From the IMG/VR virus record IMGVR_UViG_3300008117_000107, positions 1 through 46,520 of that record: a stretch of DNA of 46,520 nucleotides; one strand, 5' to 3'. Under the pieces are notes generated by a model, which was not told the DNA's origin, did no database searches, and saw nothing but the letters and a program-made list of their open reading frames with translations. Positions 2,606 to 45,332 of this stretch are shown here, piece after piece. The stretch is from a virus. Made by a program: the position numbers and the translations under genes. Position 1 is the stretch's first letter. Each line of letters opens with the position of its first letter.

Positions 2606-3322
2606 TTGCTACCTAATGCACGCTCAATGTTTCGTAGAGCAAGATTTACCACTGTTGGTCTTCGTCTTCATCTAGATGCTTCTCTTCCTGCCACATGTAT
2701 TAGAGACGGATCTAATTTTGTTTCAGCATGGAATGATAAATCTGGAGCTGGAAGACATATGGTGCAGGCAACACAAGCAAACAAGCCTCAATTTTTAGCA
2801 ACTGGCCTAGGCGGCCTTGGAGCATTACAATTTGATGGTTCAGATGACTTTATGACATTTTCCGATCAAACACTTGCTTATATTGCAGGAAAATCATTTA
2901 CAATTATATATGTTGCCTCAAAGCCAGCAAACAATAACACATGGATTTTTGGTGGAACAAACACGGGAACTAGAACAAATTTATTTGCAGGAAACTTAAC
3001 ATCTAATACGCATAGAATTGGATTCTATAATGATGACCAGGGATCTATTGTTACTGCAGCAGCATCAGGAACTACAGAAATTTACACTTTAGTTTACGAT
3101 TTAACAAATAATCAACGAACCGTAAGAAGAAATAGAGTAGAAGTCTCTCGTGCAGTCGCTGGAGGATCAGTTTCATCAATGACAGGACAGGCTATCGGCA
3201 GATATGTTTCCAGCTACGGAAATTTTAAAATTGGAGAATTTCTAATTTATGATAGAGCCTTACAGTTTGCTGAGTATGAAACTGTTGAAAAGGATCTAAT
3301 GTCGAAATGGTCTATAATCTAA
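2606..3322 (+). CDS. LamG/concanavalin-like tail protein
   Basis: A 238-residue protein starting with TTG. The choice is supported by AGGAG at 2593-2597, eight bases upstream, and by its position immediately after the previous TAA. The first ATG, at 2627, has no such site. The sequence carries a lectin-like signature: RLHLDAS near residue 20, then VSAWNDKSGAGRHMVQAT, then GALQFDGSDDFMTF. This is typical of LamG-type jelly-roll domains that bind glycans. The end (IGEFLIYDRAL, then EYETVEKDLMSKW) is also typical of this domain. It probably binds a surface sugar on the host as part of the tail. Family membership is clear by motif; the ligand is unknown. Confidence 0.75.
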   Translation: MLPNARSMFRRARFTTVGLRLHLDASLPATCIRDGSNFVSAWNDKSGAGRHMVQATQANKPQFLATGLGGLGALQFDGSDDFMTFSDQTLAYIAGKSFTIIYVASKPANNNTWIFGGTNTGTRTNLFAGNLTSNTHRIGFYNDDQGSIVTAAASGTTEIYTLVYDLTNNQRTVRRNRVEVSRAVAGGSVSSMTGQAIGRYVSSYGNFKIGEFLIYDRALQFAEYETVEKDLMSKWSII

Positions 3323-3336
3323 GGAGGGTTTAGTAA

Positions 3337-5712
3337 ATGTCATATGCTCCAATTAGATTCGCTGGTCCTTCATTAATACCATCATATCCCGCAAAAATTT
3401 ATACAGCAGTTTCTCCAATAATTATCAAAGAATTTACTGTAACTAACTTTAGCTCATCTACTCTTCCATTCAGCATATTTTTGCTTGGTGAAAATGGAGA
3501 TCAAGTATTAAATCTTTATAATGTAAACAGATCAAGCCTTGACCCATATACTCTTTATGGAAATGTAAATGTACCAAATAATACAACTTTAAGACTAGAG
3601 CATTCTTTAATTTTGGCTGCAGGAGAATCAATTGCAGCTGTTACAACAACCCCAAACTGCTACTCACTAACCATATCTGGAGTAGATATGTCTGGAACTT
3701 TATCTGGCGGAACAGGTAGCGGAGGAACTACTGGTGCTACAGGAGCAGGTTATTCAGATGTCACATCTATTACCTCTGTTCAAGTAAGCAATGGATTAAA
3801 AGTATTTTATGTAAATAATAGCGGAGCTTATACAGCAGGACAAAGAGTTCGTGTTATTAATCCTTTAAATGTTTCAACATATGTAGAAGGTGTTATTACT
3901 CAAGTTGTAAAAAACGTAAGCATATCTGTAAGCGTTGATACAAAAAACGGATCTGGAACTCTGTCAGAGTGGACATTTGCCGTAGTTGGAAATCCAGGAA
4001 CCCCTGGAGCCATAGGAGCAACAGGACCAACAGGCGCAGCAGGCGCAAACGGAACATCAGGTACAACGGGCCCAACAGGTGCCACAGGCGCAACGGGACA
4101 ATCTTTACAATTGCAAGGAACAGTTGCATCCGTAGGAGACTTGCCAACATTAGGCGGCTTAGGTATGGTGTACCTAGTTTCATCTACAAATGAATTATAT
4201 ATTTGGAATGGTGTTGCATGGGTTAATGGAGGAAAATTTCAAGGTCCTACTGGACCAACAGGATCAACAGGTCCTACAGGTTTAACAGGATCAACAGGTC
4301 CCACTGGCGCAGCTGGAAGATCAATTAATATTAAAGGCACAAAAGCAGATGTTGCATCTTTACCTTCATCGGGAAATGTAAGTGGAGATTCATGGATTGT
4401 ATTAACAGATTTACATCTTTATGTTTGGGATGGATCAACATGGATTGATGCAGGACAATTCCAGGGCCCAACAGGAGCAACTGGTCCAGCAACAATAGCA
4501 GTTGGAACAACAACCTCTACAGGTCCAACAGGAAATCCATCAGTTACAAATTCTGGAACAGCACAAGATGCAGTTCTTGATTTTGTTCTTAAGCAAGGGC
4601 CAACAGGGCCAACAGGTCCAACAGGCGCAGCCGCAGCAATAACAATAGGAACCGTTACATCAACAGGACCTACAGGAACAGTTTCTATAACAAATGTTGG
4701 AACACCAGAATCTGCACAATTAAATTTTGTTCTTAAGCAAGGCCCAACAGGAGCAACAGGACCAGCAGGACCAACAAGTATTGCAATTGGAACTATAACA
4801 GAAACTGGCCCAGACGGAGCTTCAGGAATTATAAACTCTGGAACAACTACAGATTTAGTTCTTAACTTTACTTTAAAAAGAGGCGCAACAGGAGCAACAG
4901 GACCCACTGGCGCAACTGGAGCAGCAAGCACAGAGGTAGGGCCAGCAGGAGCCACAGGCCCAACAGGACCTACAGGTGCAACTGGAACCGCAGGCGCAGA
5001 CGGAACTGGAGTTTCTATTCTAGGCTCCTATACATCATTAGCTGCATTACAAACAGCACACCCTTCAGGAATGACTGGAGATGCGTATTTAGTCAACGGC
5101 GAACTGTATGTTTGGGCAGGATCACAATGGACTAATGTTGGAAATATTTCAGGTCCAACAGGAGCCACAGGTCCAACAGGAGCCACAGGAGCAGGCGCAA
5201 CAGGCCCAACTGGACCTACAGGTGCCAATGGATCTAGCATAGTGGGCCCAACTGGACCCACTGGAACAGCAGGTGCAACAGGACCTACAGGTGCAACAGG
5301 CGCCACAGGTGCTACTGGGTTTGGGGAAACAGGCCCAACAGGACCAACTGGCCCATCTGGCGGACCAACTGGACCGACAGGACCGACAGGAGCAAGTATT
5401 ACGGCTAACTTTATTGTAACAAGCCCAGCGGGAGGAAGTTATACAATAGATGGCGCTTCAGGAAATCCAACATTAACATTATTAAGAGGTCACACTTATG
5501 TATTTACGGTAAATGCCCAAGGACACCCTTTCTGGCTTCAAACAACTTCTGGAGCATATAACTCTGCAAACACATACTCGACTGGTGTAATAAATGGTGG
5601 AGAAGATGTAGGAGGAATTACATTTACAGTTCCATTGAATGCTCCAGATGCTTTATATTATATTTGTCAATTCCATCCAAGCATGAACGGAATCATAACC
5701 ATAATCGGTTAA
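3337..5712 (+). CDS. Collagen-like tail fibre with C-terminal cupredoxin-like domain
   Basis: A 791-residue fibre with a strong site (AAGGAGGG) before its ATG. Residues 1-120 are a beta-rich N-terminal domain. From about residue 125 on, Gly-Pro-Thr and Gly-Ala-Thr triplets alternate with globular spacers of two kinds: three 'LYVWDGSxWxxxGxxxGPTG'-type modules and three 'GTxTSTGPTG...[11 protein letters not shown]'-type modules. Residues about 690-791 form a cupredoxin-like domain: GHPFWLQ carries His730, and C-Q-F-H-P-S-M carries Cys777, His780 and Met783. The C-x2-H-x2-M spacing matches the type-1 copper site of amicyanin. The triplets should form a trimeric triple helix. A glycosyltransferase gene follows 27 bases later. 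Copper binding is inferred from the ligands. Confidence 0.85.
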
Positions 5713-5739: not shown

Positions 5740-6810
5740 ATGAAAATAGCAGTATACACAATTGCTTTAAATGAAGAGCAATTTGTTGAAAGATGGTATG
5801 AATCTGTTAAAGATGCTGACTATATTTTAATTGCCGATACTGGATCAACAGATAAAACCGTAGAGATAGCTAAATCACTTGGAATAAATGTATTCCAAAT
5901 ATCAATAAACCCCTGGCGATTTGATGATGCTAGAAATGCGGCTTTATCTTTAGTTCCATCCGACATTGATTATTGTATATCCCTTGATATGGACGAAGTT
6001 TTATCAGAAGGTTGGAGAAAAGAATTAGAGTCTTTAGAAGGAACTAATGTAACTAGACCAATACACACACTTGTTAGCCACATATCAAAAATTGAAGACG
6101 AAGGTCTAGAATTTGATGCATTAAGAATGCATGCTAGACATGGGCACAGATGGAAATTTCCAATTCACGAATCTGTTTCTTTTTATGGAATAGAAGAAGT
6201 AAGAAAAAAGATTAATGTAAAAATATATCATCTTCCAGATAATACTAAATCTAGAGGACAATATCTTCCGCTTTTAGAAATGGCAGCAAAAGAAGATCCT
6301 GCTAGTGATAGATGTGCACACTATTATGCAAGAGAATTATTTTTTCACGCTAGATACAATGAGGCAGCAGAAGAATTTAAAAGACATTTATCTTTGCCTT
6401 CAGCATTTTGGAAACCAGAAAGATCTGAGTCTATGCGATATATAGCTAAATGCGATCCACAAAGTTCAGAGTTTTGGCTAAGGCAAGCAATTCAAGAATG
6501 TCCAGAAAGAAGAGAGCCGTACGTAGACTTGGCTCAATACTTTTATGAAAGACAAGACTGGATCAAGGTTAAAGAATATGCAAGCCTTGCATTAAACATA
6601 AAAGAAAAATACTTAGATTATTTTTGTGAAGCAGATGCATGGGGGTGGAAACCTCACGATCTTCTAGCTTTAGCTAGCTATAATTTAGGGTTTTACGAAG
6701 AGGCTTCAAAGCATGGAGAGATAGCAGTTTCTTTATGTGATGATCAAAGATTGCACGATAATCTAGGCTTTTATCATGCCGCTCAGAATCGTGAAAGTGG
6801 TATAATTTAA
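5740..6810 (+). CDS. Family 2 (GT-A) glycosyltransferase with TPR-like C-terminus
   Basis: A 356-residue protein. Residues 1-100 are a GT-A nucleotide-sugar domain: [13 protein letters not shown] near the start, DTGSTDKT at 33-40, and the metal-binding DMDE at 83-86. Residues about 180-340 are helical, with TPR-like repeats such as [22 protein letters not shown]. Enzymes of this shape transfer a sugar from a nucleotide sugar to a protein or glycan. The gene lies between two collagen-like fibre genes whose Thr-rich Gly-x-Thr triplets resemble the glycosylated triplets of Bacillus BclA, so I infer that it glycosylates those fibres. Modification of a host surface polymer is the alternative. A promoter for the next gene lies inside its last codons. 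Confidence 0.85.
6798..6806 (+). promoter_or_regulatory. Extended -10 promoter, leaderless start at 6813
   Basis: TGG followed by TATAAT at 6801-6806 lies inside the last codons of the glycosyltransferase gene. The ATG of the collagen-like fibre comes six bases later and no ribosome site is visible. No good -35 box is seen, so it depends on the TG extension. The transcript probably begins at or next to the ATG. Confidence 0.6.
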
Positions 6811-6812
6811 AA

Positions 6813-7595
6813 ATGCCAAGCAACTTAACGCCAAAAAACTTTAGGTATCCGACGCTAGATATGTCACCAGATATCCCTAGAGATTTGGGTTATTTGGCTC
6901 AAGATATCGACGACTATTTAACAGCAAATCCAGGACCAACGGGCCCAACAGGTCCAACGGGTCCTACAGGTGCCACAGGCGCAGACAGCACAGTCGCAGG
7001 CCCACAAGGCCCAACAGGTGCACAAGGTCCAACAGGCCCTACGGGCGCTACAGGCGCAGACAGCACAGTTGCAGGACCACAAGGACCAACAGGCGCACAG
7101 GGTCCAACAGGCGCAACAGGAGCTACAGGAACTGGCGTTACTATTTTAGGAACCTATCCAACTGTTTCAGCATTACAATTAGCACATCCAACAGCAAATC
7201 CAGGCGACGCTTATTTAATTAATGGAGATCTATATGTTTGGGATGACGTTAATGATGAATGGGACAATGTCGGAAATATTCAGGGACCTCAAGGAACAGT
7301 AGGTGCCGCTGGCCCAACAGGTGCAACAGGTGCCACAGGGGCAACAGGCGCTACGGGCGCAGACAGCACAGTCGCAGGCCCACAAGGACCAACAGGCGCA
7401 ACAGGCGCAACGGGTGCCAGGCGCAACGGGTGCCACAGGCGCAGACAGCACAGTCGCAGGCCCACAAGGCCCAACAGGTGCACAAGGGGCAACGGGAGCG
7501 ACGGGGAATACGGGTGCTACAGGACTTTCTGGCGGAATAACATTAACAGTAACAAATTCTGGCTCTGGGTCATATGTTATAAATGGATCAAATAA
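6813..7595 (+). CDS. Collagen-like tail fibre, 5' part (frame broken at 7419)
   Basis: This is the first part of a collagen-like fibre. Residues 1-40 ([20 protein letters not shown]) look like a virion-anchoring segment. Gly-Pro-Thr and Gly-Ala-Thr triplets follow, with repeated [14 protein letters not shown] blocks and one globular '[16 protein letters not shown]' spacer near residues 110-150 that matches the spacers of the upstream fibre. At base 7419 the expected GCC-ACA-GGC reads GCC-AGG-C, two bases short. The frame then runs through Arg-rich nonsense to a TAA at 7593-7595. The remainder of the protein continues in another frame to 8139. If the two bases were restored the protein would be 442 residues. 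The ATG has no Shine-Dalgarno sequence but lies six bases after TATAAT, so the mRNA may be leaderless. Confidence 0.75.
6969..7027 (+). repeat. 59-bp direct repeat, copy 1
   Basis: An exact copy of 7429-7487. It encodes part of the collagen-like tract ([19 protein letters not shown]) in the reading frame that starts at 6813. Starting points of the two copies are 460 bases apart. The pair could recombine. Confidence 0.9.
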
Positions 7596-8139
7596 TCCAA
7601 CATTATCTTTTATTAGAGGACATCGTTATGTAATTAATGTAAGTGCAACAGGGCATCCGTTTTGGATTCAAACTATTTCGGGAGCTTACAGCGCAGGTAA
7701 TATATATAACAATAGCGGTTTATCAAATAACGGAACTGATAGCGGAACAATTATATTTGAAGTTCCATTTGATGCTCCACAATTATACTATGCGTGTCAA
7801 TATCATTCTTCAATGGCAGGAGCAATTACTGTTTCTAATTTAGGTCCCACAGGTGCTACAGGAACAAATGGTGCCGCAGGTGCCACAGGGGCAACTGGAG
7901 CGACGGGTGCCACGGGAGCAACTCCAACTATTGCAGATGGTTCTATCACAAATGCTAAACTTGTAAACTCATCTATTACAGTAAATGGGTCCGCAGTAGC
8001 ACTTGGAGGATCTGTAACTGTTGCTGCAACAGCATATTCAAATGGAACAAATACGGCAAACTCAAATAAAATATTTTATAACAACACTGGCACTCCACCA
8101 TCTGGAACTGCAGCAGGCGATTTATATGTCTTCTACTAG
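7303..8139 (+). CDS. Collagen-like tail fibre, 3' part with cupredoxin-like domain
   Basis: This frame holds the rest of the broken fibre. Its first codons (7303 to about 7418) are an out-of-frame reading of the repeat and are not meaningful. Genuine triplets begin at about 7420 ([15 protein letters not shown]). A cupredoxin-like domain follows at about 7540-7840: its ligand His codon is at 7654-7656 (GHPFWIQ) and C-Q-Y-H-S-S-M is encoded at 7795-7815, which again gives C-x2-H-x2-M. More Gly-Ala-Thr triplets follow, then a small beta-rich tip ending [11 protein letters not shown]. No start codon with a ribosome site was found for this frame, so expression would need a +1 frameshift, repair of the deletion, or recombination between repeats. 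Sequencing or assembly error is also possible. Confidence 0.7.
7429..7487 (+). repeat. 59-bp direct repeat, copy 2
   Basis: An exact copy of 6969-7027. It begins ten bases after the 2-nt frame break at 7419 and is read in the downstream frame. Both copies are read in the same codon phase in their own frame. Confidence 0.9.
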
Positions 8140-8147
8140 GAATACAG

Positions 8148-9998
8148 ATGACTTTAAAAATATATGATGGAACTGACTGGAAGACACAAAGATCATTAAA
8201 ATTTTATAATGGTTCTGCCTGGTCAACAGCTAAACAAGCCTGGATATTTAATGGTAGTTCATGGGCAATTACTTATCCAGAATTCCCAAGTTCTTCAGCA
8301 AACCCATCTATAACTGTATCCTCTGGGACAAACGGAAGAATTGGTTGTACATATAGCACAACAGTAGGCTCTTGGAACGCAGACGATGCATATGCTCCAA
8401 CATCATACACTTATCAGTGGACAAGATCAGGCGTAGATATATCAGGAGCAACAGCATCCACATATACAACAACAGCATCTGATGCAGATAAAACAATTGG
8501 AGTTAAGGTAAAAGCTATCAACCAAAGAGGCGAGACAACAACTTCAGCAACTACAGGAATTACAATGCTTCCATTTGTAAGCTCTTTGTCTGCTACAAAC
8601 ACAACACAATCTGTCTCGGCCCCAACAGTTACTTTTAACGTATCTAATTTAACTTATAGCGGAAGCTGGACAGCTGTTTCAAATGCTACTACTTATGAAA
8701 CTACTTATGGAGGAACTGCAGGAGCGCCTTCTGTAAATATAGGAGCAAGAACATTTTCTGGATCTGGAACAGCAGGATCAGCCTCTTTTTCTGTAAGAGC
8801 TGTTAATACAAATAGAATAGTGTCTTTAAGTTGGACGGCAGCTGTCGGAGCAGTCTCGTATGACATATATGTAAACGGATCTTTATATACAAATACTGGA
8901 AATACTTTGACTAGTTTTACTTACAATCCTCCAGATGATAACTCTAGAACATATATTGTTTATCCACGAACATCTACAACTCAAGGGTACGGATCAAATC
9001 AACCTTCAGTTGCAGCTGCCGCAACATATTCTACATATGGAACAGGAAGCGGAACTCTTGTTCAGCCAAACGCAACTTCGCCAACATCAGCATCGTCTTC
9101 TATAAGCCAAACAAGCTTTTTTGTTTCTTGGTCTGGAGCAACAAATGCAACAAAATACAGAATATATTGGGTAAGTCAATCTAACTGGACGGGAGACCCT
9201 ACTGTTTCTTACGATGCAGAAACAACAAATACTTCAGTAACGTTTACTTCAAACTTTAATCCTGGAACAACGTATTATGCATACATTTCTGCATCAGGAG
9301 ATAATAACGTATGGACTCCATACGGAGCATATAAAACTTCTGCAACTGTTGCATATCCAGCACCAGGAACGCCTTCTCCGTCCACATCTAGCGTTACTTC
9401 TACATCATTTAATATTTCATGGAGTGCAACAACTTATACAGATAGCTACAGGGTCTGGGTCGGTACTTCAAGCGGAGGAAATAACATAGTAAATACAAGC
9501 ACAACATCAACCTCTTATTCAGTAACTGGACTATCTAATAGCACAACATACTATGTCACAATTACTGGATATGGAAGTAATTATGGCGGATATGGAAGTG
9601 ATGGAACAACATCAGCAACAACACTTGCCCAACCAGGATTTATTAACTCGGCTCCAACTGTTCAATTTGAAAGAACTGCTTCAGTCATTAAATGGGGTAT
9701 AGACAACCCATCAAGCACCTCTTATGGCGGATCTTTAAACCTTGTAGGTGTTTACTGGGAAGTTAGAACTGCGGCAGGCGGAGGAACACTAGTTGGTAAT
9801 GGTACTAAAAACTTTACTACTTCTTACAATACAGCTACCACAGTCAACGGATATTACTGGCACTATCTGGTTAGATCTAACGGAACTGTGCCAGATGTTC
9901 CATACAGCGCAAGTTCTAGATATTTAAGATGTCAATTATATGGAACTGACTCAAATACTGGAGCCACAGTTAATGGCCCATTTTCTAGTTGGCTATAA
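8148..9998 (+). CDS. Ig/FN3-like tail fibre protein
   Basis: A 616-residue all-beta protein. The first 45 residues hold three short repeats of the form 'YDGTDWKTQ', 'FYNGSAWSTA' and 'IFNGSSWAIT'. Short Trp repeats like these cap many phage fibres. Residues 50-145 resemble an Ig-like domain with YTYQWTRSG and ATASTYTTTASDADKTIGVKV. After that come several fibronectin type III-like domains with the usual 'SFNISWSATTYTDSYRVWVGT' and 'YSVTGLSNSTTYYVTITGYG' strands (residues about 300-500). The Thr/Ser content is very high and nearly all Arg codons are AGA. Such domains bind carbohydrate or serve as spacers on virion surfaces. It starts nine bases after the broken fibre gene and overlaps nothing important downstream. 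Confidence 0.75.
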   Translation: MTLKIYDGTDWKTQRSLKFYNGSAWSTAKQAWIFNGSSWAITYPEFPSSSANPSITVSSGTNGRIGCTYSTTVGSWNADDAYAPTSYTYQWTRSGVDISGATASTYTTTASDADKTIGVKVKAINQRGETTTSATTGITMLPFVSSLSATNTTQSVSAPTVTFNVSNLTYSGSWTAVSNATTYETTYGGTAGAPSVNIGARTFSGSGTAGSASFSVRAVNTNRIVSLSWTAAVGAVSYDIYVNGSLYTNTGNTLTSFTYNPPDDNSRTYIVYPRTSTTQGYGSNQPSVAAAATYSTYGTGSGTLVQPNATSPTSASSSISQTSFFVSWSGATNATKYRIYWVSQSNWTGDPTVSYDAETTNTSVTFTSNFNPGTTYYAYISASGDNNVWTPYGAYKTSATVAYPAPGTPSPSTSSVTSTSFNISWSATTYTDSYRVWVGTSSGGNNIVNTSTTSTSYSVTGLSNSTTYYVTITGYGSNYGGYGSDGTTSATTLAQPGFINSAPTVQFERTASVIKWGIDNPSSTSYGGSLNLVGVYWEVRTAAGGGTLVGNGTKNFTTSYNTATTVNGYYWHYLVRSNGTVPDVPYSASSRYLRCQLYGTDSNTGATVNGPFSSWL

Positions 9999-10437: not shown

Positions 10438-12264
10438 ATGTCATATTTTAGAACCGTACTGGCTGACTTCCCCGTATCTTATTACACACTAGATGAAGTA
10501 AAATCTGGAACGTTTGATTATTATAATGAAATTATTTCTACATATCCTACATATCAAGCATTACGAGATGCATTTACTTCATACGAAGAAATATCTGGTC
10601 AAGCTCTCCTAGACTACTCTGGAAATTTTAACAATGGAACAGTTTCTGGAATATCGGGGTCTAAAATAATGCCATTAGTTGCAGGTGGTATATATGGAAC
10701 ACTTGTATCAGATACTACAATTATGGAGTATGAAGCTCCAGGGCTTGCAAACAAATATTATTCAGATAATCAATTTTCTATCGAGGCCTGGGTAAAATTG
10801 CCAAATGCAAACAATACACAAGTAACCATTATAGGAGATCCAGATGAAAATATTGGGGTATTTTATAAAAATGGAGACCTTATATTTAAAGCAGGATTAA
10901 ACGAAACAAGATATAAATACTCAAACAATAAAGCTATTCATGTTGTTTGTATATATACAAAAAATAATTTATCTATGTATATAAATGGAAATCTAGTTTC
11001 TTCATCCTCATTGAATAATTTTGTTTTTTCTAACAATTCAACAGCCTGGAAAACAGGCCCGTCTTTGCCAAATAATTATTTTGTAATTGACTCTGTTTCT
11101 TTTTATAGACATGCTTTAACAGGATTAAAAATTGCTAAACATTACTCTGAAGGAATAAAAGAACTAGACTACTCTCAAATAGTATACCCAGACGGCGGTA
11201 TTTTCTTCAGCTTAAATCATTCAAAAATTAGACCAGTTGCAAGATACTCTTATCCAGAGACTAAGCCGTGGTCACAAATTATTGATGAAAATGTTGTAAT
11301 GTCTACAGATCAGTCTTATATTACTTTTGCAAAAACAATAAGTCCTTCTACTAAAACATTTACTTTTACAGAAACCATTATAGTCCCAAGCTCTTTAAAT
11401 GTTTCTAGCTCTCAAATATCCTGGGATGACGATGTTGAAAATATTATCGTTCAGGTCAGCCAGGACAACGCAGCCTGGCAAAATTGTAAAAATAATTTTC
11501 CAATACCATTTTTTAATAAAAATGACGGAATATCTTCAGGACTACTTTATTTAAAGGTAACAATGTCTTCTTCTGACACCTCAAAAGATCTGCCAGCGTT
11601 AAGATCAATTTCACTTGACCTTTATTCAAACACAGATTTTTATGCAGACAATTCTTCAGACAGAATATATTCATCTTTAGATTACGGACTGTCAAGATAT
11701 AATCATCCTATAATTTCTTATAATGATTATAATGGATTAAGAATGTATAACGGCGGAGGTATTAGCGTTGACTCAAATACTCAATTTAGAACCATAGAGT
11801 TTGTCTTCACCCCGTCCTTAGCAGGATCTTTACAAAATGTTTTGTTTTCTAGTAATACCAAAATATTTGAGTGGAGTTCTACTGGAGTAATCAATAAGTC
11901 TGGCATATCTAATATTTATGTAAATGGCGTAGATTACACATCTGCAACAAATATATCTGACTTCTTAACTAGAGGCATGCCACACCATATGGTCTTAGTG
12001 CTATCTTCAGCGGCAACAAGTAATATTAAGTTTAACTCTAATCAGTCAGGCTCAGTTTCTGGAACAAGTAATTTGTATAGCAATATAGCCCTCTACCCAG
12101 ATGCCCTGACTGCTGGGCAGGCCACAAATCATTACCAGCTTTATACAAAGCAATATGTGCTATCTGTGTCAGACATTTCTTTTTCTATTACAGAATCTGA
12201 CCTAGGGAATGACCAAACAGCCTACCTAGTTAATAATACTGAGTATCAATCTGCAAATATTTAA
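10438..12264 (+). CDS. LamG-like tail protein
   Basis: A 608-residue protein with TAGGAG before its ATG. Residues 1-75 begin SYFRTVLADFPVSYYTLDE and resemble the N-terminal attachment region of other LamG fibres. Residues about 75-230 form a LamG-like jelly roll: LLDYSGNFNNGTVSG, then FSIEAWVKLPN, then LSMYINGNLVSSSSL, then DSVSFYRHALTGLKIAKHY. This is a carbohydrate-binding fold common in phage side fibres. The rest is beta-rich, with a second lectin-like segment near residues 440-560 (EFVFTPSLAG, MVLVLSS). The gene closes the fibre island and is followed by an inverted repeat and a promoter for the head genes. Host-surface binding is inferred from the fold. Confidence 0.75.
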   Translation: MSYFRTVLADFPVSYYTLDEVKSGTFDYYNEIISTYPTYQALRDAFTSYEEISGQALLDYSGNFNNGTVSGISGSKIMPLVAGGIYGTLVSDTTIMEYEAPGLANKYYSDNQFSIEAWVKLPNANNTQVTIIGDPDENIGVFYKNGDLIFKAGLNETRYKYSNNKAIHVVCIYTKNNLSMYINGNLVSSSSLNNFVFSNNSTAWKTGPSLPNNYFVIDSVSFYRHALTGLKIAKHYSEGIKELDYSQIVYPDGGIFFSLNHSKIRPVARYSYPETKPWSQIIDENVVMSTDQSYITFAKTISPSTKTFTFTETIIVPSSLNVSSSQISWDDDVENIIVQVSQDNAAWQNCKNNFPIPFFNKNDGISSGLLYLKVTMSSSDTSKDLPALRSISLDLYSNTDFYADNSSDRIYSSLDYGLSRYNHPIISYNDYNGLRMYNGGGISVDSNTQFRTIEFVFTPSLAGSLQNVLFSSNTKIFEWSSTGVINKSGISNIYVNGVDYTSATNISDFLTRGMPHHMVLVLSSAATSNIKFNSNQSGSVSGTSNLYSNIALYPDALTAGQATNHYQLYTKQYVLSVSDISFSITESDLGNDQTAYLVNNTEYQSANI

Positions 12265-41856: not shown

Positions 41857-42063
41857 ATGATTTCATACGATATACCTGATCCATTTGAAACTTTTGTTTC
41901 AAATAAATACAAAAATTACGTCGGTGCGGTGTATGATTTTTTTGCCAGGGAATGGCATATGAAATGTGGTTGTTGCAAAGAAGACCTGTATGCACCAAAT
42001 AAAAAAACTATGACAAAGATTAGACTTTATCATACTAGAAACGAATGCTGTGGCGGTTATTAA
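41857..42063 (+). CDS. Small Cys-rich protein, unknown function
   Basis: A 68-residue protein with no ribosome site. Its ATG sits six bases after the TAAAAT box of a good -35/-10 promoter, so the mRNA is probably leaderless. It contains WHMKCGCCKEDLYA near residue 34 and LYHTRNECCGGY at the end, giving five Cys and two His in a pattern that could hold one zinc ion. The family is unknown. The stop overlaps the polymerase start by one base, so it is co-expressed with the polymerase and could modulate it; that is inference. Confidence 0.65.
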   Translation: MISYDIPDPFETFVSNKYKNYVGAVYDFFAREWHMKCGCCKEDLYAPNKKTMTKIRLYHTRNECCGGY

Positions 42064-45000
42064 TGAGTTTTACACATCTGCATGTTCACTCATACTATTC
42101 ATTAATGGATGGTCTTAATTCGCCTGCAGACTTAGTTAAAGCAGCAAAAGATGCTGGGCAAACAGCATTAGCAATTACTGACCACGGAACATTGTCTTCA
42201 CATCGTGAAATGCAAATAGCCTGTAAGGAACAGGGTATAAAGCCTATACTTGGGGTAGAGGCGTATATATCTCCTACAGATAGATTTGATCGTTCGTCTA
42301 AAACAGATAAATCAATTCAGGCCTATAACCATATTATTCTACTTGCTAAAAACAAAAAGGGTTTAGAGAACATAAATATTTTGCAAGAGCTCGCATGGAA
42401 CGAAGGCTTTTATCACAAGCCACGTATTGATAGGGAGATACTTAATGAATACTCGGAAGGCGTTATTGTATTGTCTGGATGCCTTAATGGCCTCATCTCT
42501 AAATGCATCGAGAAAAACGAGTTCTCTGAAGCTAAACTTATTCTCAAAGATTTTAAGAAAAATTTCGGTGAAGATTTTTATATTGAGGTTCAGGCTCACA
42601 ATCCGAAAGAAATAAATGAAGGCCTATTGGCGCTAGCAGATGAGCTTAAAATTAAAGCGGTGGCAACAGGAGATGCTCACTTTGCCAAAGAAGAAGATAG
42701 AGTTTTAGAAGAAGCAATGCTTATCTTATCTACATCTCCAAAAGCAGATAAAGAAGCAGATTTTGAAATGTCTAGACAGATTAAAGATATGTTAGATAGA
42801 TTCAATTATCTATATCCTGATAGAAAAATATCATTTGTTGACTATAATTTATTTATTCAGACTAGGGCTGAAATAGAGGCGGACTTTAAAAAGGCTGGCA
42901 TAGATAGAACCGACATATATACCAATACCATGGAGATAGCCCATAAAATTGAAGAATACGACTTCTACCAGGGGTTGGACCTCCTGCCTGTTCCTAAGAC
43001 CAATGCTGACCAAAAGCTCCGCCAGATGGCCTTAGAGGGCCTTAAAAGGCTAGATCTGGACAAAGAGCAGGTCTACTTAGACAGAATTGAGGAAGAGTTA
43101 TCTATAATTAAAGATAAGTCTTTTGCCTCATATTTTCTTGTTGTGGCAGACATGGTTAACTGGGCAAAGGATAACGATATTGTTGTAGGGCCAGGGCGTG
43201 GCTCTGCAGCAGGCTCCCTTGTATGCTACACATTAGGAATTACAGATGTAGATCCAATTAAATATGACCTTCTATTTTTCCGATTTATTAATCCTGAACG
43301 TAATGACTTTCCAGACATAGATACAGATTTTGAAGATCGTCGCCGTAAAGAAGTTAAAGAATATTTAAAAAAGAAATTTAAGCATGTTGCTTCTATTTCT
43401 ACATACACTTATTTCAAAGACAAAGGCGTAATTCGTGATGCTGCTCGTGTGTTCATGGTTCCGCTTTCAGATGTAAATCGTGCCATGAAATCAATTGATA
43501 CATTCGAAGACTTTATAGATTCTCCAAACACAAAAGAATTTAGAATGAAATACCCAGAGGTCTTGTGGCTTGCAGAACGTTTACGTGGAAAGATTAGGTC
43601 TGTTGGAGTACACGCTGCTGGAGTTGTGGTTGCTAAAGATGATATTAGAAAGTATGCGCCAGTAGAATCTAGGGCGGATGCAGACGACGATGTTTCTGGA
43701 AGAATTCCTGTGGTTGCGTACGACATGGATACTGTTGCAGATATAGGATTAATTAAGCTAGATGCACTGGGACTAAAAACGCTTTCAGTTATTTCTGACA
43801 CATTAAAATCAATTAAGAAAAGAACCAAAGAGGATATAGTTTTATCAAGGTTGCCGCTAGACGATAAACTTGTATATAAAACATTAAGCGAAGGATATAC
43901 AAAGGGTGTCTTCCAGGCTGAAGCTACCCCTTATACAAACCTACTTATCAAAATGGGAGTTGATAAGTTTGAAGATCTTGCTGCATCAAATGCATTGGTT
44001 CGCCCAGGGGCTATGAATACAGTAGGAGCTTCATATGTTAAGCGTAAACACGGAGATGAAGCGGTACAATTTATCCATCCAATTATGAAGCCGTTTACCG
44101 AGAACACATATGGTGTTATTATATACCAAGAGCAGGTTATGCAGGCATGCGTACACCTAGGAGGGATGACTTGGTCAGAAGCCGATAAGGTTCGCAAGAT
44201 CATTGGTAAAAAGAAAGATGCAAAAGAGTTCGACCAGTTCAAGGATAAATTTATTGTTGGGGCTTCAAAACACATTTCTAAGAAGCAAGCCGAAGACCTC
44301 TGGCACATGTTTGAGGCTCATGCGGGGTATTCTTTCAATCGTTCTCATGCCGTTGCTTATTCTCTTCTTTCTTATTATACTGCTTGGCTTAAGCATTATT
44401 TCCCTCTTGATTTTATGTTTTCAATTCTTAAAAACGAAAACGATAAGGATGCTAGAACTGAGTACCTCATTGAGGCAAAAAGATTAGGGCTTAAGGTATC
44501 ACTTCCTCACATCAATGAATCAGAAATTAATTTTTCATTAAAAGATAATAAAATTGTTTTTGGACTTGCTGAAATTAAATTTATATCTGACAGCATTGCA
44601 AATAAAATTTTAGCTTTGCGACCATTTAAAGACTACGCAGACTTTATAGAAAAAGCTTCTAAAAAAGGCAGTGGAATAAATAGTAGAGCAGTTTCAGCAT
44701 TAAACGCAATTGGCGGTGCAGCATTTGAAGACAACAAAAGGTCTGGAAATGAAAAGGATAGTTATTATGAATATTTAGGTATACCTACATTTAACCTAGA
44801 GGGTATTCCTCCAAGAATTAAATCGCAAGCAAGGCCAATTGAAGAGTTTGACGACTTAGGTTCTTTTGTAATGTTCGGAATGGCTAAGTCTATTAAAAGA
44901 GGAAGCGGATGGGCAAGGGTAGAGTTGGTTGACGAAACTGGATCAATAGGATTATTTGATACAGAGCAAACAAAAATAGAAACTGGGCAAATGTATTTTG

Positions 45001-45332
45001 TTTTAGTTGGAGATAATAGAATTGCAAGGTATGTAAAGGTATCTGACGTAAGTCCTGATTCAAAAGATATATTCGTAGACTTTCTTTATAGAAAACAATA
45101 CGACCTTGCGGAAGGCGAGTACTATGTGGTAAACTTTACTCCCTATGTGACAAAAGCAGGAAAGACTATGAGCCATATTGTATTATCAAATAAAGATAAA
45201 GATCTTACACGAGCCATTGCTTTTCCAAGTATGTATAAGATGTCTCTTGCAAAAATGCGAGAAGGCATGAGTTGTAAAGTGGTTTTGTCAAAACTAGATG
45301 ACGGAACTCTTATGGTAAAGGAAATAAAATGA
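42063..45332 (+). CDS. dnaE: DNA polymerase III alpha subunit (DnaE-type)
   Basis: A 1089-residue polymerase. I prefer the ATG at 42063, which overlaps the previous stop, over one 18 bases earlier. The N-terminal PHP domain keeps the metal ligands: H-L-H-V-H near residue 5, ITDHG, GVEAYI and TGDAHF. The palm has GPGRGSAAGSLVCY, then PDIDTDFEDRRR with catalytic Asp at 418/420/422, and D567 in GLIKLDALGL. The fingers (EAHAGYSFNRSHAVAYSLLSY) and a C-terminal OB-like region follow. It synthesises phage DNA with the primase and helicase. The intact PHP domain suggests its own 3'-5' proofreading. Confidence 0.95.
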   Translation: MSFTHLHVHSYYSLMDGLNSPADLVKAAKDAGQTALAITDHGTLSSHREMQIACKEQGIKPILGVEAYISPTDRFDRSSKTDKSIQAYNHIILLAKNKKGLENINILQELAWNEGFYHKPRIDREILNEYSEGVIVLSGCLNGLISKCIEKNEFSEAKLILKDFKKNFGEDFYIEVQAHNPKEINEGLLALADELKIKAVATGDAHFAKEEDRVLEEAMLILSTSPKADKEADFEMSRQIKDMLDRFNYLYPDRKISFVDYNLFIQTRAEIEADFKKAGIDRTDIYTNTMEIAHKIEEYDFYQGLDLLPVPKTNADQKLRQMALEGLKRLDLDKEQVYLDRIEEELSIIKDKSFASYFLVVADMVNWAKDNDIVVGPGRGSAAGSLVCYTLGITDVDPIKYDLLFFRFINPERNDFPDIDTDFEDRRRKEVKEYLKKKFKHVASISTYTYFKDKGVIRDAARVFMVPLSDVNRAMKSIDTFEDFIDSPNTKEFRMKYPEVLWLAERLRGKIRSVGVHAAGVVVAKDDIRKYAPVESRADADDDVSGRIPVVAYDMDTVADIGLIKLDALGLKTLSVISDTLKSIKKRTKEDIVLSRLPLDDKLVYKTLSEGYTKGVFQAEATPYTNLLIKMGVDKFEDLAASNALVRPGAMNTVGASYVKRKHGDEAVQFIHPIMKPFTENTYGVIIYQEQVMQACVHLGGMTWSEADKVRKIIGKKKDAKEFDQFKDKFIVGASKHISKKQAEDLWHMFEAHAGYSFNRSHAVAYSLLSYYTAWLKHYFPLDFMFSILKNENDKDARTEYLIEAKRLGLKVSLPHINESEINFSLKDNKIVFGLAEIKFISDSIANKILALRPFKDYADFIEKASKKGSGINSRAVSALNAIGGAAFEDNKRSGNEKDSYYEYLGIPTFNLEGIPPRIKSQARPIEEFDDLGSFVMFGMAKSIKRGSGWARVELVDETGSIGLFDTEQTKIETGQMYFVLVGDNRIARYVKVSDVSPDSKDIFVDFLYRKQYDLAEGEYYVVNFTPYVTKAGKTMSHIVLSNKDKDLTRAIAFPSMYKMSLAKMREGMSCKVVLSKLDDGTLMVKEIK

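Follow-up and report, generated by a model that had tools for sequence, protein, structure and literature searches.

The question raised by a fibre gene at positions 3337-5712 of the IMG/VR virus record IMGVR_UViG_3300008117_000107 is why the chain of a phage fibre should end in what resembles a copper protein. The record, called the window below, comprises 46,520 bases, and read by eye its genes run from fibre genes through portal, capsid and tail to replication; the two fibre genes described here, with their cupredoxin domains and ligand codons, lie on the + strand. The fibre gene is an open reading frame (ORF) of 791 amino acids that matches PF01391 at 6.8e-12, in agreement with an initial annotation that had called it a collagen-like phage fibre with a cupredoxin-like domain at about residues 690-791. 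Our analysis supports the conclusion that residues 687-791 (5395-5709), hereafter domain 1, adopt a predicted cupredoxin fold with a full type-1 ligand set, as judged from profile comparison, modeled fold and conservation. We put a probability of roughly 60% on the fuller reading that these C-terminal 105 residues are a cupredoxin with an amicyanin-type type-1 site that forms a copper-loaded head contacting the host. Sequence and model together make it very probable that the domain binds copper or another soft metal, while any single use of the bound metal is much less probable than binding.

Predicted fold and ligand order of the C-terminal domain

The four putative ligands are His730 (GHPFW, within AQGHPFW; codon 5524-5526), Cys777 (within YYICQFH; 5665-5667), His780 (within CQFHPSM; 5674-5676) and the axial Met783 (within HPSMNGI; 5683-5685). 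A script check placed each residue where the initial annotation had it, and the interval 5395-5712 that it assigned to the domain equals the domain plus its stop codon. Domain residue n, where used below, is protein residue n + 686. To judge from the primary structure, domain 1 has the residue order of a type-1 site, which is His, Cys, His and an axial ligand with the Cys, His and Met in a C-terminal loop, and the C-x2-H-x2-M spacing that had been likened to that of amicyanin can be seen in an alignment to amicyanin 1sfd.

Searches of Pfam, NCBIfam and the PDB with single sequences were too weak to decide family membership, with auracyanin B as the best PDB match (E 0.012). A profile built from 33 phage copies that are <62% identical retrieved from the PDB copper nitrite reductases (3.5e-6), auracyanin A (1.3e-5), plastocyanin (2plt, 2.7e-5) and amicyanin (4.6e-4). 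In the profile alignments the Cys, His and Met are in register with those of plastocyanin and amicyanin, and the first His pairs with the corresponding His of auracyanin A and is offset by two residues from that of plastocyanin. Additionally, 4 of 20 relatives scanned singly pass the gathering cut-off of 21.2 bits for Pfam Copper-bind (PF00127), with scores of 23.9 (L234), 24.0 (L240), 26.4 (L262) and 21.7 (L022). The profile of PHROG 677, which represents cyanophage gp9, contains the cupredoxin domain at positions 305-409 of 412 (3.9e-24). This match does not extend beyond those positions and the window protein is thus not a member of PHROG 677 as a whole; the domain is common to both, the remainder of gp9 is not, and the window carrier is a different protein, a collagen-like fibre. 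PF25489 (At5g54830-like) matched 4 of 49 members of the family, which were not revealed by scans of 20 members. A match of the window's second domain (see below) to DUF4352 (0.002, under its cut-off) was judged to be a generic sandwich match and was set aside.

The initial annotation had proposed that a predicted structure be superposed on amicyanin or plastocyanin, and this comparison came out in its favor. An AlphaFold2 model of domain 1 built from 49 sequences (pLDDT, or predicted local distance difference test, 96.8; pTM, or predicted template modeling score, 0.88) has as its top Foldseek matches in the PDB the cupredoxin AcoP (2.3e-5) and rusticyanin (5.6e-5), followed by laccases, a pseudoazurin with an engineered amicyanin loop (3.1e-4), plastocyanin (4.7e-4) and amicyanin (6.3e-4), with 48 matches reaching 0.001. 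VIA-align ranks rusticyanin first, with Z of 10.2-11.1 over 95 of 105 residues at ~2.1 A and 22-23% identity; Z is 8 or more in 248 of 999 chains, and the 50 matches listed are without exception rusticyanins, copper nitrite reductases or laccases. The predicted structure is thus a Greek-key beta sandwich, most of which can be superposed on solved cupredoxins. In domain numbering, H44 sits between modeled strands 34-40 and 47-49, while strand 86-90 leads into C91, followed by H94, M97 and strand 98-104, which is the layout of a cupredoxin. Among the plastocyanin/azurin-type cupredoxins of PF00127, which domain 1 resembles in predicted fold, in the order H...C-x2-H-x2-M and in profile kinship, amicyanin is the closest for the ligand loop, and rusticyanin and AcoP are the closest for the fold. 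It differs from them in forming part of a collagen-like fibre of a phage, in having its His precede a Pro and in falling below the family cut-off when scanned alone.

Probable selection on the ligand residues

A common fold by itself proves no function. The patterns used in the second scan, in the bacterial-genome scan and in part of the first scan include the ligands, so that counts from these scans favor copies with the site and were given no weight as evidence for it. A ligand-blind scan was instead made with the 42 residues upstream of the first ligand as query and with a pattern, N[PK][TA]L..., that lies wholly outside the site; one of the eight query rows (L018) reached three residues further, to G-H-P, which are absent from the pattern. 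Among the best 80 of 184 confirmed loci that were kept, HP...C-x2-H-x2-M is present in 80/80, representing 51/51 distinct stretches. When all collected copies are considered, with rows <70 residues, identical duplicates and the window's own copies (L023 and L024) removed, 188 of 196 distinct copies have the complete H-C-H-M set (earlier tallies were 100/105, by listed exceptions, and 124/126). By source, the set is present in 2/2 copies from the window, 16/16 from scan 1, 24/28 from phage records, 51/52 from scan 2, 33/33 from scan 3 and 62/65 from bacterial and archaeal genomes.

The ligand columns score 0.90-0.92 in 39 viral representatives that are <62% identical (of 131 rows), where the median column scores 0.44, and 0.91-0.95 in 22 cellular representatives (of 65), where the median is 0.45. 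Non-ligand columns that are equally conserved are G32, G64, F37, Y89 and P25, as expected for the fold. The His and Cys codons of the site vary silently (first His, CAT 128 and CAC 60; Cys, TGT 137 and TGC 51; second His, CAT 126 and CAC 62), which argues that selection maintains these residues and that recent copying alone does not account for them. A few copies retain the fold after losing the ligands, so stabilizing it is presumably not what the ligands are for. Metal binding is therefore the simplest reading of the sequence conservation at this site. Tail proteins of the gp7/gp10 region of cyanomyoviruses contain long-insert relatives of the domain, of which L033 (4300-4683) and L030 (5950-6300) keep the ligands.

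Several observations weigh against the copper-loaded cupredoxin that we favor. Scanned alone, domain 1 scores 13.2 bits, well short of the 21.2 bits of Copper-bind, and searching the window with PF00127 gave no match at 1e-3. It scores 12.3 bits with the NCBIfam amicyanin model TIGR02657, far under the equivalog cut-off of 110.2, and hence domain 1 is not an amicyanin although its sequence has an amicyanin-like loop. A larger profile of 49 members that includes cellular copies gave weaker PDB matches than the phage profile (auracyanin A 3.1e-4, amicyanin 0.002, plastocyanin 0.0021). RhoGDI headed the VIA matches of a first AlphaFold2 model made from 14 sequences (pLDDT 86.2), whose Foldseek matches in the PDB were no better than 4e-3 and which was superseded by the 49-sequence model. 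The ligand-blind sample tilts toward close kin since only the best 80 of the 184 loci were kept. Finally, 8 of the 196 copies are without the full set, and two of these (L039 and L252) apparently keep the fold. L039 has lost H, C and H (FAVM) and L252 all four residues (TSNQ), while L214 has lost the first His. The axial Met is replaced by Gln in L212 (5001-5288, from an Acidobacteria genome) and in L089 (5861-6142, from a viral contig); stellacyanins use Gln as their axial ligand. In the gp10-like stretches L034, L036 and L038, near 4930-5340, the match ends before the site or the site is missing.

Possible roles for a putative metal at the end of the fibre

The copper-loaded head that we favor would work as follows. 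From the C-terminal position of the domain in a collagen-like chain, we infer that it lies at the free end, or tip, of a presumably trimeric fibre. It would be made without copper in the reducing cytoplasm and would be loaded with copper after lysis from the surrounding water, and the copper form, stiffened by its metal, would be a compact head that makes contact with the surface of the host. In our opinion the domain would serve chiefly for host contact, with copper required for the head, and the copper might also move electrons or might itself be what the host recognises.

Redox activity, in place of binding, could alternatively be the property under selection, with the copper donating or accepting electrons where the fibre meets the host or removing reactive oxygen around the virion. 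Electron-transfer cupredoxins have these same ligands, and the closest folds (rusticyanin, AcoP, plastocyanin and laccases) are in line with such a device. However, it has no known electron partner, none is adjacent among the window genes read by eye, and electrons would have no evident path to or from a single type-1 centre carried at the far end of a fibre; we regard this role as rather improbable.

Another improbable explanation is surface mimicry, in which the domain is common with bacterial surface proteins and the fibre binds the partner of a collagen-cupredoxin protein of the host. Two actinomycetotal loci, L209 (4632-5285) and L225 (1341-2141), encode an N-terminal hydrophobic segment, collagen repeats and a cupredoxin domain, and their settings appear by eye to be chromosomal, with neighbours that resemble pstSCAB and uppP. 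They group with the second cupredoxin domain of the window in a tree (Shimodaira-Hasegawa-like approximate likelihood ratio test, SH-aLRT, 93, not starred), but the tree is weak, with 103 columns and few strong branches. The domain is also rare in these bacteria, since at 1e-10 it is matched in 7 of 247 genomes from their class and in 2 of 396 from the phylum, both counts including the L209 and L225 seeds; therefore transfer may have gone from phage to bacterium. The host of the window phage is likely to be actinobacterial because the major capsid protein of the window is closest in sequence to those of Streptomyces phages, which make up 127 of 216 matching records; among the 20 matches listed, identity is 55-60% and the records are 121-132 kb long.

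The initial annotation had itself offered a copper-free structural cap, in which the sandwich would end the collagen helix and aid the register of the three chains, with the four residues either leftover or packed in the core. A cap would be well placed where the collagen-like chain ends, and the copies that are without the set (L039, L252 and the partial gp10-like L034, L036 and L038) indicate that the fold is viable without the site. Against it stand the retention of the set throughout the ligand-blind sample, the rank of the ligand columns among the most conserved in viral and cellular copies alike, the nature of the exceptions, which are mainly Met-to-Gln changes or joint losses, and the bacterial carriers, most of which have no collagen repeats. 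As an account of the domain in general a cap is quite improbable; it suits just the rare degenerate copies L039 and L252, and for domain 1 it is unlikely.

Copper as a handle, by which a host metal-uptake protein would recognise the bound copper and draw the phage to it, is quite unlikely: iron-binding HxH motifs in tail fibres are proposed to act so in the accessible part of PMC11705849, and carriers infect cyanobacteria and, by its record, an actinobacterium, but no copper receptor is named here, and the receptor would presumably have to differ between hosts that have an outer membrane and those that lack one.

Both the fold and the site are already known. A cupredoxin module on phage tail proteins was not found in searches of open-licence papers, which does not establish its absence from print. 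Iron has already been proposed in tail fibres, namely in the HxH fibres of T4 gp37 and Alteromonas phage R22Y (PMC11705849, as far as its accessible text goes). The likeness is that of a proposed metal in a phage fibre, whereas the metal, motif and fold differ, and the iron lies along the fibre, in contrast to the one putative site per chain at the fibre end described here. Plastocyanin (petE) is likewise a known cyanophage gene according to the available portion of PMC2984593, so that carriage of a cupredoxin gene by cyanophages has a precedent; PetE is a separate carrier protein that serves photosynthesis in the infected cell, in contrast to the tail-protein domain described here.

If copper is bound, many cyanophages and related viruses have a redox-type metal site built into their tail proteins, where labels like "tail fiber connector" or "hypothetical protein" have masked it. 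Attachment of these viruses would then be tied to copper supply, and virions would be possible copper ligands in water. A part for copper in host finding or entry, if true, would be the copper counterpart of iron in tail fibres.

Distribution and neighbouring genes

The window contains a second collagen-like fibre gene (6813-8139) with a second cupredoxin domain (7543-7833) that has the same four ligands and is 56% identical to domain 1. Its frame is broken inside the collagen repeats into ORFs 6813-7595 and 7303-8139 but is open (ORF 6052-7386) in a contig, L001, that is 99.86% and 99.88% identical to the window over 6.4 and 4.3 kb. The break is a change in repeat number that is either real or from assembly. 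The gene between the two fibre genes (5740-6810) resembles by eye a glycosyltransferase, and a glycosyltransferase is also annotated near the cupredoxin domain of the lake actinophage DSL-LC01.

The initial annotation had regarded such a domain on a phage fibre as unusual, but it proves to be common in the tail-protein genes of cyanophages. At 1e-3 it matches 344 of 50,697 phage records, of which 336 are named Synechococcus, Prochlorococcus or Cyanophage; at 0.1 there are 353 records. One match is DSL-LC01, and neither tally contains a Streptomyces phage. In phage records the domain is often at the end of "gp9" (PHROG 677, "baseplate wedge tail fiber protein connector"). Structure predictions appear to place it on other phage proteins as well, including S8/S53 and S74 peptidase-like proteins, and a match by fold alone extends to putative "beta-sandwich" proteins whose names come from Pithovirus and Marseillevirus genomes (BFVD; e.g. 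A0A481Z6J5 and A0A481YVH3). In the accessible part of the S-CREM2 virion proteome (PMC10665884) the detected ORFs could not be tied to the domain, and its presence in virions is thus deduced from annotation and gene place.

When bacterial and archaeal genomes were scanned, the domain was located at 58 loci, of which 46 carry Bacteroidota titles. Among 10 carriers scanned, the domain accompanies CHRD, DUF7282, laminin-G, fibronectin and FGE-sulfatase domains, four carriers that were read (L206, L210, L212 and L234) have lipoprotein-like starts, and collagen repeats are present in just 2 of 65 bacterial and archaeal copies. A broader proposal, which we hold tentatively and consider doubtful as a whole, is that unrelated tailed phages and perhaps some giant viruses carry a copper-loaded module that is traded with bacterial surface proteins, with copper aiding host finding or entry.

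Two tandem domains, both with C-x2-H-x2-M, are present in the alphaproteobacterial proteins L211, L213, L215 and L216, and the Marivirga proteins L210 and L223 have 4 or 6 DUF7282 repeats followed by one C-terminal cupredoxin domain. Elsewhere in the window, genes at 740-1675, 2606-3322, 8148-9998 and 10438-12264 appear by eye to be glycine-rich, lectin-like or fibronectin-like, giving the first 12 kb the look of a dense host-contact module. At the other end, an ORF of 1095 amino acids at 42045-45332 resembles by eye the alpha subunit of bacterial DNA polymerase III.
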